Shown: piece after piece, positions 12,988-56,528 of the stretch
Numbering within the stretch: position 1 is the first letter of the stretch
How the letters are laid out: each line of letters starts with the position of its first letter
Origin: an uncultured Bacteroidota bacterium
GTDB lineage: Bacteria > Bacteroidota > Bacteroidia > Chitinophagales > Chitinophagaceae
Length of the DNA stretch: 64,000 bases
Direction of reading: 5' to 3'
Assembly: GCA_903853805.1 (NCBI GenBank)
Contig: CAINUN010000035.1
Coordinates: 1 to 64,000, forward strand
Notes under the pieces: model-generated
Database searches by the model: none
What the model was told of the DNA's origin: nothing
Seen by the model: the letters and a program-made list of their open reading frames with translations, nothing else
Translations under genes and position numbers: made by a program

Positions 12988-14361
12988 ATGGCAAATACTA
13001 AAACTCTTTTTCTAGAAAAAAGCGAAATCAAAGCACATGACCTTGAACATAAGCGCAAGCTTGCTTTCAATATTGATAAGTATGCACAATCAGTAATTAA
13101 AGGAAAACTACAATTTTCTAATTTAGATCTTGCTCGCAAACGCGCCAAAAACATAAAATGGAAAACCATTGAAAACCTCGATAAATATTTAGAAGAATTT
13201 GAAAAGAATTTTACGGCTCGTGGGGGGAAGGTAATTTGGGCAGAAACTGCAGAAGAAGCCAACAATGCCGTTTTGAAAATCTGTGAAGAAAAAAACTGTA
13301 AACAAGTTGTGAAATCAAAGTCAATGGTTACAGAAGAAATTCATCTCAATGATTTTTTGGCAAATCACAATATTGAATCAGTAGAAACCGACCTTGGTGA
13401 ATATATTCAACAGTTAGATGGAGAGGCTCCTTATCACATTGTTACGCCTGCCATGCACAAAAGCAAGGAAGATGTGGCACGTGTATTTCATGAAAAATTA
13501 GGAACAGCCCCCAATCTCACACCGCCAGAACTAACTCAAATTGCCCGTGTCAATCTTCGTGCAAAGTACCAAAGTGCGGATGTAGGCATTACAGGCGGGA
13601 ATTTTTTATTAGCTGATGTTGGTGGTGTTTGTGTTACAGAAAATGAAGGCAACGGCAGGCTTTCGACTGCTTTTCCAAAAACGCACATTGCTATTGTTGG
13701 CATCGAAAAAATGTTGCCTTCCATAAAAGACTTAAACACATTTTGGCCATTACTCGCCACCTATGGCACTGGTCAAAATGTAACCGTTTACAATACTATT
13801 TTCACTGGTCCTAAGCAAGCTGGAGAAACCGATGGACCAGAAGAAATGTATGTCATTCTTTTAGACAACGGTCGTACTAATTTGTTGCAAACTCCAGAAG
13901 TGCGCGAGAGTATGTATTGTATTCGCTGCGGCTCTTGTTTGAATGCTTGTCCGGTTTATAAAAACATTGGCGGACATGCCTATGGCGCTACTTATAGCGG
14001 TCCAATAGGTTCTGTTATTAGTCCGCATTTGAAATCTTTGGAAGAATTCAAACACCTCAGTTATTCTTCAAGTCTTTGTGGCAATTGCACTGAAGTTTGT
14101 CCATTGAAAATCAACATTCATGAAATGCTATTGGAGAACAGAAATCTTGCTACCAAAAAAGGATTGAATGATAGAAGCGAAAGTTTGAGTTGGCGTGTTT
14201 GGAAAATGGCAATGCTGAATAAAAGTCTTGTCAATGTAGCTAGTGCTGGCGTGAAAAACACAGTAGTCAATAAACTGTTTAAAAATTCTTGGGGCAAACA
14301 TCGCGGCGAACTTCATTTTGCTAAAAAGTCTTTTCAACAACTTTGGAAAGAGAGAAACTAG
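12988..14361 (+). CDS. lutB: LutB-like LUD-domain iron-sulfur protein
   Basis: 457 residues, the usual length for LutB/YkgF, a component of the LutABC L-lactate oxidation complex. The N-terminal two thirds is the LUD domain (TGGNFLLADVG, GIEKMLPSIKDL). Two ferredoxin-like clusters follow: Cys311, 314, 317 and 321 (CIRCGSCLNACPVY) and Cys364, 367 and 371 (CGNCTEVCPLKI). Both would bind 4Fe-4S. It is cytoplasmic. lutA and lutC are not adjacent here, so the rest of the complex must be encoded elsewhere or the protein serves another oxidation. The next gene starts 8 nt after its stop, suggesting co-transcription. The family call is firm; the substrate is inferred from the family. Confidence 0.9.
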   Translation: MANTKTLFLEKSEIKAHDLEHKRKLAFNIDKYAQSVIKGKLQFSNLDLARKRAKNIKWKTIENLDKYLEEFEKNFTARGGKVIWAETAEEANNAVLKICEEKNCKQVVKSKSMVTEEIHLNDFLANHNIESVETDLGEYIQQLDGEAPYHIVTPAMHKSKEDVARVFHEKLGTAPNLTPPELTQIARVNLRAKYQSADVGITGGNFLLADVGGVCVTENEGNGRLSTAFPKTHIAIVGIEKMLPSIKDLNTFWPLLATYGTGQNVTVYNTIFTGPKQAGETDGPEEMYVILLDNGRTNLLQTPEVRESMYCIRCGSCLNACPVYKNIGGHAYGATYSGPIGSVISPHLKSLEEFKHLSYSSSLCGNCTEVCPLKINIHEMLLENRNLATKKGLNDRSESLSWRVWKMAMLNKSLVNVASAGVKNTVVNKLFKNSWGKHRGELHFAKKSFQQLWKERN

Positions 14362-28409: not shown

Positions 28410-28556
28410 TCTTGTAAGGTAAATTAATGATGTCAAAAAGTAGATTAATGACGTAGTAAGGTAGATTAATGATTTCAAAAGGTAAATTAATGATATAATA
28501 AGTTAGATTCATGACTACTAAAATGCAACTCATGACTACTAAAAGACAACTTAAGT
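28410..28556. repeat. Seven imperfect 21-bp tandem repeats
   Basis: Exact 21-nt register: units begin at 28410, 28431, 28452, 28473, 28494, 28515 and 28536. The first four share the core GGTA(A/G)ATTAATGA; units 5-7 drift (TTAGATTCATGA, TGCAACTCATGA, GACAACTTAAGT). The array is AT-rich and lies between the regulator's terminator and the 81-residue gene. No open reading frame of its own. Confidence 0.85.
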
Positions 28557-44478: not shown

Positions 44479-44537
44479 AGAAAACTTCTTTAGTAATTGC
44501 TTTGCAAAAATAATGAAGTTTAGTTATAAAGTTTATA

Positions 44538-44742
44538 GTGTGCAATAATACTATTGAATGATAAATCTTCAATTAATAGTGCACAATGCGATTAACAAGT
44601 GATAAATCTTCACTTAATAGTGCACAATGTGATTAACAAGTGGTAAATCTTCACTCAATAGTGCGCTAGTACATTAATAAGTAATGAATCATCACTTAAT
44701 AGTGCGCAAGCACATTAATAAATGATAAACTTATAATTTAAT
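44538..44742. repeat. Five 41-bp tandem repeats built of 20- and 21-nt halves
   Basis: Units start at 44538, 44579, 44620, 44661 and 44702, exactly 41 nt apart. Each has a B half (GTGCACAATGCGATTAACAA-like, 20 nt) and an A half (GTGATAAATCTTCACT-like plus TTAATA, 21 nt). Each clear A half holds an AGTGA...TCACT inverted repeat, and the B half holds GTGCAC or GTGCGC. Units 2 and 3 are the most alike, and the two outer units are degenerate. Confidence 0.88.
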
Positions 44743-51302: not shown

Positions 51303-52205
51303 TCATTCCCCCTTCACCATCCTCACCTCTACCCTCAACTTATGCTCTATACTAAACTCCCGTTCCAAAGTTTGTGTTTCATAACCCTCGGCGGTGATGA
51401 TAATGAGTTGCTTGCCTTCCCTCAGGTTGCGAATTTGGAGATTGCCCAGCTTGCTTGCTTTTCGTTTTATTTTTTCGGGGTGAATTTCTACAACTGCGTT
51501 CGGAACAGGCGCACCTGTTACGTCATCTACAATCTTCATCATCAGTGCCAGGTGGCGGCGACCGAGAATCTCCAACTTGCGTGCATGGAAATAAATAAAC
51601 TCAAAATCGGGATACTCCACCATCACAATGCTGGCACACAAATCCAAACGCCTGTTCAATATTTCCAGCGCTTCTTTCACTAGCTTTTTGATGGAGGCAG
51701 TATTTTTCTTCGATGCTTTTTTGGCGTGCTTTTGCGCCTCATCAGCTTTATTAAAATCGGCTATCAACACCTCCACACGGTCAATTGTTTGCTGCGTGAT
51801 GCCATACGGTGGCAAGGCTGCCAGCTTTTCGGCAGCCAGGTTCTTTAGTTTTTCTGCCATTCCCACCAGCACCAACTGCTTTGCCTTCTTAAAGTCGGTG
51901 GGAGAATAATGAACCAACACCCGCAGGTCTTCATCCTCAATCGAAGCAGCATAAGCCTCCAAACCAGCCGACAAAACCCCGCCCAAAATCAACAATTCTT
52001 TACGCAGTTTTTGCTTACCAACAGTCTCTAACGCGCCAGTGAAGACTTCATTAGGAATAAGCGCACGCGCAGCCGTTTTCTTAGCTATGAAAAGTTGAAA
52101 AGCAGTACTGAAAGCTTGGTTTCCCTGCCACATTGCTTGGCTTTTGTTGCAATTAATTTCTACAACATCAAACATTTTAAGGTATGCGCCGGTGGTTCTA
52201 TCCAT
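51303..52205 (-). CDS. Hypothetical helical protein with C-terminal carboxypeptidase-regulatory-like domain
   Basis: 300 residues from ATG 52205 (MDRTTGAYLKMFDVVEINCN); an upstream ATG at 52247 would give 314 residues and include the inverted-repeat arm, so the shorter start is preferred with modest confidence. The first 230 residues are strongly helical and rich in Lys and Ala, possibly coiled coil (EAQKHAKKASKKNTASIKKL). The last 75 residues are a beta-sandwich like carboxypeptidase-regulatory domains (VDDVTGAPVPNAVVEIHP, REGKQLIIITAEGYET). No signal peptide. Function unknown; similar proteins occur in Bacteroidota. It lies beside an unusual inverted-repeat-bounded region. Confidence 0.7.
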   Translation of the reverse strand: MDRTTGAYLKMFDVVEINCNKSQAMWQGNQAFSTAFQLFIAKKTAARALIPNEVFTGALETVGKQKLRKELLILGGVLSAGLEAYAASIEDEDLRVLVHYSPTDFKKAKQLVLVGMAEKLKNLAAEKLAALPPYGITQQTIDRVEVLIADFNKADEAQKHAKKASKKNTASIKKLVKEALEILNRRLDLCASIVMVEYPDFEFIYFHARKLEILGRRHLALMMKIVDDVTGAPVPNAVVEIHPEKIKRKASKLGNLQIRNLREGKQLIIITAEGYETQTLEREFSIEHKLRVEVRMVKGE

Positions 52206-52220
52206 AATTTCATTCCAAAG

Positions 52221-52708
52221 CGGATTATGGTCGCTTCGGAACAGCAAATTTAAGAAACTGATTTTATTTGCTTCAACACTTTTTTTAGTTCTTTTAATAA
52301 TGAATCAATATTTCTTAAAAATAAATCATAATTTTTTTAAGAAGAATTAAATTTCTTTTTAAAAGAAGATATTTTATTTTAAAATAGTGAGTGTTTCTTT
52401 TACATAGAGCAATATTATTTTAAAATAGGGCTTTATTTTTAAAACATTGAACCTTATTTCTAAATTTTTAATTTACTTCAATGTTGAAGAAAAATAATTC
52501 TTTTTAAAAAAAAGCATAAACTAATTTAAATCAACATAATCAATTTTTACAGAAATAAAAAAACAGAAAGAACAATCATTAATCAATTTTACAGAAACTA
52601 ATTTCAATTAAAAAGAAATGTAAAAAAAGTATAAAGAAATGTAATTCAGTGTTGAAGAAATAAATATCAACAAATGAAATAAACTATTCCGAAGCGACCA
52701 TAATCCGT
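52221..52708. repeat. AT-rich repeat region bounded by a perfect 21-bp inverted repeat
   Basis: Left arm 52221-52241 (begins CGGATTATGGTC, ends TTCGGAA) and right arm 52688-52708 (begins TTCCGAAGC, ends ATAATCCG) are exact reverse complements, 21 of 21. The 446 bp between are very AT-rich and show a 20-21-nt rhythm: TTATTTTAAAATAG recurs 41 nt apart near 52370 and 52411, TAATCAATTTT at 52537 and 52580, and a run of AAGAAA-ending segments near 52600-52665. No target-site duplication flanks it. No gene inside. Confidence 0.75.
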
Positions 52709-52750: not shown

Positions 52751-53437
52751 TTAAGGAACAATTATAGTGCTTGCCTGCACATAGTTTACCTTGCGGAAGA
52801 TGTAATGATTGCCATTGACAAGCTCGGTATGTTGGTTGTAAATGTTGATCGACATACCTACAATAGAATCTTGAATATTGGTGAAGTAATTGGAGGAAAA
52901 GCTAATGGAATTGATATTGCCTGTGAAGGTTTTTGTAAGCTTTTGACTATTGGGTACTCCATTAAATGGAAAATAAAAATTGACTTCGACAGAATCTGCA
53001 TTAGTGAATGTGCAAGGAAAGGAAAAGCCTTGATGATAATGGATAGTGTCGGGGATAGTGATGTTGTAATAAGGAAATGGAGCAGAGTAAGTAAAGTCAT
53101 AATCCTTTATCGTTTTGCCGCCTGAAATTTGCCAGTGAATGGGGCTATCTATATCTGTAAAAGGGGCATAATATGCCCAACCGAAAAACATACCATTTAT
53201 GTAACGTCCCAACCCCAAAGAAGAATCGTTTGCCTTTGCGATCATGCCAGAATTAAAATAGATAGTAGATATTACATCCAATGGAGGATAAACATATTTT
53301 TGAGCATCAAAAAAGGTCAAATTTGCACTTTTATTAGAAATCTCAAAAATTCCATAGTAATAATTTGGAGTGGTTGCATCTTTCTTACAACCCAAAAACA
53401 AAAACGATGCTGCAAGGAGGAAGGAGAGGTGTTTCAT
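52751..53437 (-). CDS. Lipoprotein of unknown function
   Basis: 228 residues with a lipoprotein signal: MKHLSFLLAASFLFLGC, lipobox FLGC, mature start Cys-Lys-Lys-Asp. The body is beta-rich (YYYGIFEISNKSANLTFFDA, SFPCTFTNADSVEVNFYF) and ends VNYVQASTIIVP. I recognise no family. It is probably anchored in the outer or inner membrane, facing the periplasm or the surface. It begins 7 nt after the next lipoprotein gene's stop on the same strand, so the two are likely one operon. Confidence 0.78.
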   Translation of the reverse strand: MKHLSFLLAASFLFLGCKKDATTPNYYYGIFEISNKSANLTFFDAQKYVYPPLDVISTIYFNSGMIAKANDSSLGLGRYINGMFFGWAYYAPFTDIDSPIHWQISGGKTIKDYDFTYSAPFPYYNITIPDTIHYHQGFSFPCTFTNADSVEVNFYFPFNGVPNSQKLTKTFTGNINSISFSSNYFTNIQDSIVGMSINIYNQHTELVNGNHYIFRKVNYVQASTIIVP

Positions 53438-54191: not shown

Positions 54192-56528
54192 CTAGATAAA
54201 CTTCACTTTGATACTAATGTTGGCGGTTCTTCCTTTATCATCGGTGCAAGAAATTTTGAGGTCGTTGGCAGAAGGAAAGAAGGAAATTTTTTTGTTCGAC
54301 TCGGTGCTGCCAAGAAATTTATCATTCACATACCAATAGACTTTGTGTACATCATTTGCGGTATTGCACTCCAGTTGTAACGCCTGTTTTTCTTTATCTG
54401 CAATGAGGTAAGTCAATCCATTTTGAAGAGAAGTAATGACAGGGGCATGCCCATCAAAAATGCGATTACAAGCGGGATTGTGTTGCGGAATTTTTTGGTA
54501 AGAAAAATGAGTGGCGTCAAACCAATTGGCAAGGTCGGCATCAATGTTGGGATACTTTACCGTTTTATATCCATTAGCGGGAAGACAAGATGTGCAATAA
54601 GAAAAACTTTCGTCGGCAGTAACCCACACCTCACGAATATGATCACAAACTTCGTTGCTAGATATGCCGGGTATATAAGCATCGGACACCAACTCTTCAC
54701 AATAATCGTTGGGTAGTTTCCCTGTTTTACTACAAACCATTCTATACGATATTCCTTGTGGTGCAGGTTGCCATTCGTTGGCAGCATGAGGGTCAATGGC
54801 CGTAAATAATTGAAACAAAAGAGGAGTTGCAGTGCCAGCACCACTTAGTGAAGGAGCGCCATCACCATTGAAATTTCCTACCCAAACGCCTATGGTATAT
54901 TGTTGATTAAACCCAATGCTCCATCCATCTTTTCGACCGTAAGAAGTGCCCGTTTTCCAAGCAACACGCGGAATGTTTTTGGCATGGTCATAAAGATTGG
55001 GCAAGTCGGGGCGATGCAATTCGAGCATGATTTGAGCAATCATATAATTTGCCGCAGGCGAAATGACTTGTCTTGGTTTTTCTTGGTCAACAAATTTCTT
55101 TTTCCATTTCCAAACACTATCGGGAATAACAAAACGCAGTCCATGGTAATTACCTTCGTTTGAAAACGCACTGTATAATGCAGCCATTCCATCCAATCGT
55201 ACTTCACAACCACCCAAAATCATGGAGAGTCCGAGGTTCTTTTTTTCTTTTGAAATTTCTTTGAAACCAAATTGTGCCATGCGTTCTGAAAATGTTTTTA
55301 CCCCTAACTTTTCTAAAGTTTTTACAGCAGGTATATTCAACGACCAACGAAGAGCATCTTCAATCGTAACATTTCCTCGGAAGTTGAGATCGTAGTTTTC
55401 GGGAGAATAGCCAGCAATATTGATAGGCACATCGGCAATAACCGTTTTAGGCGTAAGCAAACCATAATCGAAAGCCAATCCATAAAGCAAAGGCTTTAAA
55501 GCACTGCCTGGCGAACGAGCACCTTGCACACCATCCACTTCGCCATGATGTTCTTTGTCGTTGAAGTTGGGAGACCCTATATAAGCAAGCACTTCGTGGC
55601 TATGATTGTCAACCACAATGACTGCAGCATTATAAATCTGTTGCAATCGCAAACCATTGGCATAATTTGTTGCCATGTCTTCTGCTTTTTGTTGAAGGTC
55701 AGCATCGAGTGTGGTATGAATTTCATTCAATTGCGGATAAGCAAATCGCATTCGCCAACAAAATTGTGGCGCAGCACCGGGCGCTTGATGACGATAGGCA
55801 GTTAACGGCTCTTCTAAGGCATCGTTGATAACAGAAGAAGGAAACAATTTGGCAATAGCAAATTTTTTCAACCACTTATTTCGTTCAAGCATAATGGCAG
55901 CATTATCTTTTCCCATAACTAAAGAATTAGGTCGATTGGGGATAACGCTCAACGCGGTGAGTTCTGCAAGAGAAAGTTGGTCGGGAGATTTGTTGAAGTA
56001 TAAAATGGAAGCTGCTTTTACACCTTGAATATTGGAGCCATAAGGAACGAGATTAAGATAGAGTTGTAGGATTTCATCTTTAGAAAATGAAGTTTCTAAT
56101 TGCAAAGCCCGAAACATTTCCACGATTTTGTTCCAATAATTTCTTGGTTTTCTATCCAGCATTCTTGCTACTTGCATGGTGATAGTAGAAGCACCTGAAG
56201 TGCGACGAAGATGAAAGACATTATTCACCAAGGCTCTCACAATTGCCAAAGGATTGATACCAAGATGTTGATAGAAATGTTTGTCTTCTTTAAACAAGAT
56301 GGTTTCGCGAAGCTGTGGTGTAATTTCTTCAAGTCTTGCTTTCATCCGCCATTGTTCATCTTTGGTGATGTAGGTATGAATTACCGCCCCATTTCTATCA
56401 TAAACTACTGGAGCAAATTCCACATTTGCATTCAATGGAAAAATCAAATCGAACACAAAAAAAAGCACAATCAGCACCGTAATGCTGATTGTACTCCATT
56501 TGATTATTTTATGAGAGGTTAACGTCAC
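54192..56528 (-). CDS. pbpC: Penicillin-binding protein 1C
   Basis: 778 residues. A short cytoplasmic tail and one membrane segment (residues about 12-32) anchor it. The GT51 glycosyltransferase domain has catalytic Glu near residue 80 (EDKHFYQHLG) and the TITMQVARML helix. The transpeptidase domain has the SxxK nucleophile near 340 (GSALKPLLYG), SLN near 394 and KTGTS near 525. The C-terminal BiPBP_C domain is present (about 690-778, VHKVYWYVNDKFLG). It polymerises and cross-links peptidoglycan. It begins 6 bp after the alpha-2-macroglobulin gene; this pair is a known conserved operon (pbpC-yfhM), where the macroglobulin is thought to guard the repair site. Confidence 0.96.
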   Translation of the reverse strand: MTLTSHKIIKWSTISITVLIVLFFVFDLIFPLNANVEFAPVVYDRNGAVIHTYITKDEQWRMKARLEEITPQLRETILFKEDKHFYQHLGINPLAIVRALVNNVFHLRRTSGASTITMQVARMLDRKPRNYWNKIVEMFRALQLETSFSKDEILQLYLNLVPYGSNIQGVKAASILYFNKSPDQLSLAELTALSVIPNRPNSLVMGKDNAAIMLERNKWLKKFAIAKLFPSSVINDALEEPLTAYRHQAPGAAPQFCWRMRFAYPQLNEIHTTLDADLQQKAEDMATNYANGLRLQQIYNAAVIVVDNHSHEVLAYIGSPNFNDKEHHGEVDGVQGARSPGSALKPLLYGLAFDYGLLTPKTVIADVPINIAGYSPENYDLNFRGNVTIEDALRWSLNIPAVKTLEKLGVKTFSERMAQFGFKEISKEKKNLGLSMILGGCEVRLDGMAALYSAFSNEGNYHGLRFVIPDSVWKWKKKFVDQEKPRQVISPAANYMIAQIMLELHRPDLPNLYDHAKNIPRVAWKTGTSYGRKDGWSIGFNQQYTIGVWVGNFNGDGAPSLSGAGTATPLLFQLFTAIDPHAANEWQPAPQGISYRMVCSKTGKLPNDYCEELVSDAYIPGISSNEVCDHIREVWVTADESFSYCTSCLPANGYKTVKYPNIDADLANWFDATHFSYQKIPQHNPACNRIFDGHAPVITSLQNGLTYLIADKEKQALQLECNTANDVHKVYWYVNDKFLGSTESNKKISFFPSANDLKISCTDDKGRTANISIKVKFI

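Follow-up and report, generated by a model that had tools for sequence, protein, structure and literature searches.

Contig C35 (69,467 bp), one of the 106 contigs of the 3.5-Mb genome, holds the window, which is the whole 64,000-nucleotide stretch of DNA that was analysed. On its minus strand, a penicillin-binding protein gene (54192-56528; product domains Transgly, Transpeptidase, and BiPBP_C) is followed by two small putative lipoprotein genes, the non-coding element described here, and a gene at 51303-52205. The upstream neighbour of the element (52751-53437) lies on the same strand as gene 51303-52205, encodes a putative lipoprotein of 228 aa, and ends 43 nt outside the right arm of the inverted repeat that bounds the element. 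Gene 51303-52205, the presumed target of a promoter within the element, encodes 300 aa with a weak, carboxypeptidase-regulatory-like C-terminus that scores below the Pfam cut-off; the product seems not to be a surface antigen. Homologues are present in 20 of the 394 genomes of the family, own genome included. Their N-termini align at ATG 52205 (MDRTTGAYLKMF versus MNKRQNAYLLMF, MNAKQEAKLNML, MTKREEAKLSMY and others), which places the start codon there and makes the left arm of the repeat an untranslated leader that covers -16 to -36 relative to this codon. None of the family homologues has comparable flanking repeats, which means that gene and arrangement are not conserved together. The relatives within the genus are without this locus, and in relative G001, lepA adjoins the penicillin-binding protein gene instead.

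The left arm (CGGATTATGGTCGCTTCGGAA) occupies positions 52221-52241 on the plus strand; the right arm (52687-52707, minus strand) is its exact reverse complement over all 21 bp. The original prediction had described these arms correctly but set them 446 bp apart; the gap measures 445 bp (52242-52686), and the bracketed segment including the arms 487 bp. This pair is the longest perfect inverted repeat of the window. In 30 Markov-2 resamplings of the window, the longest arm per resampling was 13-17 bp, and 21 bp was never reached; an origin of the arms by chance, already dismissed in the original prediction, is rejected. For the arm 20-mer, zero chance matches are expected, even with three mismatches. 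Elsewhere in the genome, the next longest perfect inverted repeats (gap of at least 60) measure 15-17 bp, as judged from the 422 kb of 3.5 Mb that were scanned and to which genome-wide statements on inverted repeats refer. Perfect identity is limited to the arm, the flanks beyond the 21 bp being unlike (17 of 45 identities, P 0.67), and the outer boundary is sharp. As originally observed, no target-site duplication or other direct repeat is visible at the arm ends. The peptide FRSDHNP (TTC CGA AGC GAC CAT AAT CCG) can indeed be read on both sides, but this carries no coding meaning, since any inverted repeat read outward yields the same peptide twice. The suggestion of a duplicated and inverted mini-ORF is contradicted by the gene start at ATG 52205, downstream of the left arm, and by the reading frame of the right arm, which is part of no gene.

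On the minus strand, TTG-N21-TAAATTTG (52276-52245) lies close to the left arm on its core side. It matches the -33/-7 pattern of Bacteroidota promoters, for which TAnnTTTG is the consensus (PMC3090145), and reads outward through the arm toward gene 51303-52205. In simulations with the composition of the core, a promoter that points outward and lies no more than 45 nt from an arm is rare (P=0.004). The TAAATTTG box is situated at -47 before the gene here and recurs at -50 in two homologous loci of another genus (L162 and L175), and because of this recurrence it is likely to belong to the gene's real promoter. Transcription is predicted to start where the arm meets the core, so that the left arm would supply both the start site and the leader of the minus-strand transcript. 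When the segment is flipped in silico, no promoter match toward the gene is left, and one match faces right, where no evident plus-strand gene start is found beyond the element.

The left arm is also contained in a dyad, TTCCGAAGCG-ACCATAATC-CGCTTTGGAA, of 10-9-10 layout (52213-52241, minus strand), whereas the right arm is without a matching outer half. In the predicted leader RNA, this region would form a hairpin of 10 bp (-13.3 kcal/mol) whose end lies 7 nt short of the AUG; the homologue leaders examined are mostly unstructured and without such a hairpin. A dyad with an asymmetric spacer, as in the 10-9-10 arrangement here, is the layout of tyrosine-recombinase core sites. Dyads of equal quality occur in 1.8% of 48-nt windows, however, so the dyad alone is weak evidence.

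The core between the arms is the most AT-rich stretch of the window (17.5% GC) and consists of a degenerate array with a period of about 21 nt. Its autocorrelation peaks at lag 21 (z=5.7) and lag 42 (z=4.3), the 95th percentile of the maximum over all lags being 3.2, which bears out the previously reported rhythm of 20-21 nt with recurrences at 41-43 nt. At lags 10 and 11, there is no signal, so the rhythm is not a simple helical phasing of A-tracts. The left half of the core shows the period most strongly. The left side is T-rich, the right side A-rich, and the whole is weakly self-complementary. Both inner flanks carry AGTGTTGAAG at 39 nt from the arm (P about 0.004), within an alignment that extends to AGTGTTGAAG(C)AAATAAA(T)ATCA (P 0.006-0.017 by other measures). 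The left copy of this shared block (52259-52280, minus strand, AGTGTTGAAGCAAATAAAATCA) includes the -33 box of the promoter; the right copy (52648-52669, plus strand, AGTGTTGAAGAAATAAATATCA) starts at the same offset, but no intact TAnnTTTG follows it, and the right side is therefore without an intact -7 box. With the arms removed, the core still folds better than shuffled sequences (z -1.7 to -4.0), so the whole element is a loose quasi-palindrome, which may be a consequence of symmetric array units. No Rfam match was obtained inside the element, even at E<=1, and searches with the core gave only short AT-rich matches and no homologues.

Arrays of this kind are widespread in the genome. Tandem Repeats Finder, run on 697 kb of the 3.5-Mb genome, to which genome-wide statements on arrays refer, found 50 array loci, and in 32 of them the period is 21 or close to a multiple of 21. 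A crude gene call places most of these 32 between genes, and their units differ from locus to locus. Two arrays lie inside the window (28414-28551 and 44535-44729); further loci are L084:6457-6641 and 13597-13916, L089:13785-13965, L095:7325-7470, and L092:14469-14644. The array at L080:1361-1572 consists of ten near-perfect palindromic 21-nt units (GAACAAAAGGTAATTGTTCGT), and its contig also carries a tyrosine recombinase gene at a distance of about 2 kb. An array of 19-21-nt units (CAAACAGTGGTGCATCTAA) at L084:18603-18722 is broken by an inverted repeat that is nearly perfect over about 27 bp, and array copies are present outside the repeat too. Among samples of relatives, G001, G003, G004, and G005 have few or no 21-nt arrays, and G002 has several. 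One of the latter, a GCATTCAAAGCCAATGCTCGA-like array at L022:1-180 (G002:C133), immediately precedes the genus homologue of gene 51303-52205. DNA with a 21-nt period, of unrelated sequence in the two cases, is thus found before two members of this gene family.

The core of the element is best seen as a degenerate member of this population. It shares with the other intergenic arrays of the genome the period of 21 (or 41-43, 63, 84) and the intergenic position. The others differ from it in being cleaner arrays with a unit specific to each locus, and inverted repeats of at least 13 bp flank just 2 of 27, in one case partly owing to a palindromic unit. Inverted-repeat flanks as a generic feature of 21-nt arrays are rejected on this count. 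That one common period, 21 nt, is combined with differing sequences across the genome raises a testable question, namely what sets the period.

Beyond this locus, the genome holds no further copy of the arm sequence at up to three mismatches. The arm is absent from the genus, the one three-mismatch match (in G004) being unrelated sequence, and across the 394 family genomes its matches do not exceed a reversed-pattern control. The arms are absent from viral contigs and the whole region from plasmids. An exact match to the arm 20-mer in an alphaproteobacterial MAG was dismissed as an unrelated, apparently coding region, roughly what chance yields at this database size, and AT-rich BLAST matches in G011, G029, and others proved to be unrelated promoter or coding sequence. 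The outermost 14 nt of the arms have no exact copy elsewhere, and their two-mismatch matches are scattered (11 including both arms versus 5 in the control). Occurrence of the arm at this place alone is what the original prediction had named as its refutation; being unique in the genome, the arm does not delimit AT-rich spacers as a dispersed class. Of the protein-binding boundary site originally proposed, what survives is a candidate crossover site for a recombinase. The 69-kb contig carries no tyrosine or serine recombinase gene. Elsewhere, the genome encodes eight tyrosine and two small serine recombinases, and near the sampled recombinase genes no inverted repeat resembling the arms was found. 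At L091 (2282-2884 and 3956-5843), a small serine recombinase that resembles Mpi-type invertases weakly, with a score below the cut-off, is about 1 kb from a 17-bp inverted repeat, the arms of which lie within two genes.

The layout is fitted better by an invertible promoter than by the other known arrangements considered, and the 487-bp segment is tentatively regarded, at somewhat short of an even chance, as a candidate phase-variable inverton. The case is circumstantial. A recombinase encoded elsewhere in the genome would cross over between the identical, oppositely oriented, asymmetric arms and flip the segment. In the assembled orientation, the promoter would drive gene 51303-52205 (ON); after the flip, the end without an intact -7 box would face the gene and the promoter would point away (OFF), making the gene phase-variable. 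Invertons have been defined by inverted repeats of about 10-40 nt flanking a segment (PMC11892184), a range that includes the perfect 21-bp arms. As in known invertons, the repeat sits between promoter and start codon, and motif and comparative evidence point to an internal promoter that reads out over one repeat and is lost from the gene on inversion. The asymmetric spacer of the dyad around the left arm and the recombinase complement of the genome, with its one weakly Mpi-like member, are also in favour. Moreover, 21 perfect base pairs next to diverged sequence are what repeated strand exchange would produce. Against this reading stand the missing recombinase gene on the contig, the uniqueness of the arm pair, the poor outer half-site of the right arm, the absence of arm-like repeats from the family homologues, and a product unlike surface antigens. 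A repeat motif common to several sites of one recombinase, which is typical without being obligatory, was not found either.

In Bacteroides fragilis, the fin/PS promoters are flipped by the FinA/Mpi invertase and the large-capsule promoter by the tyrosine recombinase Tsr19 (PMC3090145, PMC11892184). The present element resembles Bacteroidota invertons in its short perfect inverted repeats around an intergenic segment, its outward TAnnTTTG-type promoter beside one repeat, and the gene close downstream. It differs from them in the lack of an adjacent recombinase gene, the genome-unique arm, the AT-rich core with its 21-nt period, and a target that is not an evident surface gene, and in that switching is here a prediction. 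An extended version of the inverton reading, in which a site used by a recombinase at this single locus is combined with a functional, 21-nt-phased AT array that joins the arms or sets the flip rate, would make the element a specialised member of the genome-wide, locus-specific arrays; only a slight probability is attached to it.

The main rival is a duplication that is inverted but passive, with no switching function. Template switching would have placed an inverted copy of the leader (about 21-24 nt, perhaps together with the upstream -33 region) a few hundred bases farther upstream, and the AT-rich array between the arms would be a minisatellite that expanded and then decayed. This is a serious alternative, though in itself rather unlikely. 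It would explain why the left arm is at the same time the leader of the gene and follows a promoter found in homologues, and it agrees with arms that are unique and unconserved in a genome that readily forms 21-nt arrays; the second shared block may merely reflect symmetric array units. If that block was part of the copy, however, the duplication must be old, and a perfect 21 bp beside heavy divergence then needs selection or repeated exchange. Another origin, which would place a decayed, non-autonomous, MITE-like transposon with an internal minisatellite between the lipoprotein gene and gene 51303-52205, is suggested by BrickBuilt and PgRS/MITE464 of Porphyromonas gingivalis. These multi-copy, minisatellite-bearing MITEs of the same phylum have 12-nt IS5-like TIRs around arrays of 23 or 41 nt, and BrickBuilt has outward promoters (PMC4596501). 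The element shares with them inverted-repeat ends enclosing a non-coding, tandem-repeat core, the intergenic position, and an outward promoter (an activity there, a motif here), and its outer ends are sharp and its core AT-rich. Unlike them, it is present as one copy in genome and genus, its array is very degenerate, and its 21-bp ends occur in no repeated element found; from the scattered matches to the outermost 14 nt, no resident IS evidently has the same ends. The MITE reading is disfavoured and considered unlikely, because of the single copy, the missing target-site duplication (a feature that is variable in BrickBuilt), and an internal promoter that goes with the gene family and not with an insert; the earlier view that this is not a classic MITE thus holds.

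It is less probable still that the locus is a regulatory leader, in which the hairpin at the 5' end of the mRNA, together with an operator-like dyad over the start site, would control the gene, the distant arm acting as a second site for a looping regulator. The stability of the predicted hairpin, its position close to the AUG, and the mostly unstructured leaders of the homologues would suit such a role, but the right arm cannot form the hairpin, its operator dyad would be one-sided, and no other copy of the site exists in the genome.

Of the invertible-promoter reading, the arms, the promoter motif with its recurrence in two homologues, the start of the gene, and the effect of an in-silico flip are observed or computed, whereas the flip itself, a recombinase acting from elsewhere, and phase variation of the gene are inferred. 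If the segment does flip, one more phase-variable gene would be known from beyond the well-studied gut Bacteroidales, and the protein family thus controlled, which has no assigned role, would not be an evident surface antigen.
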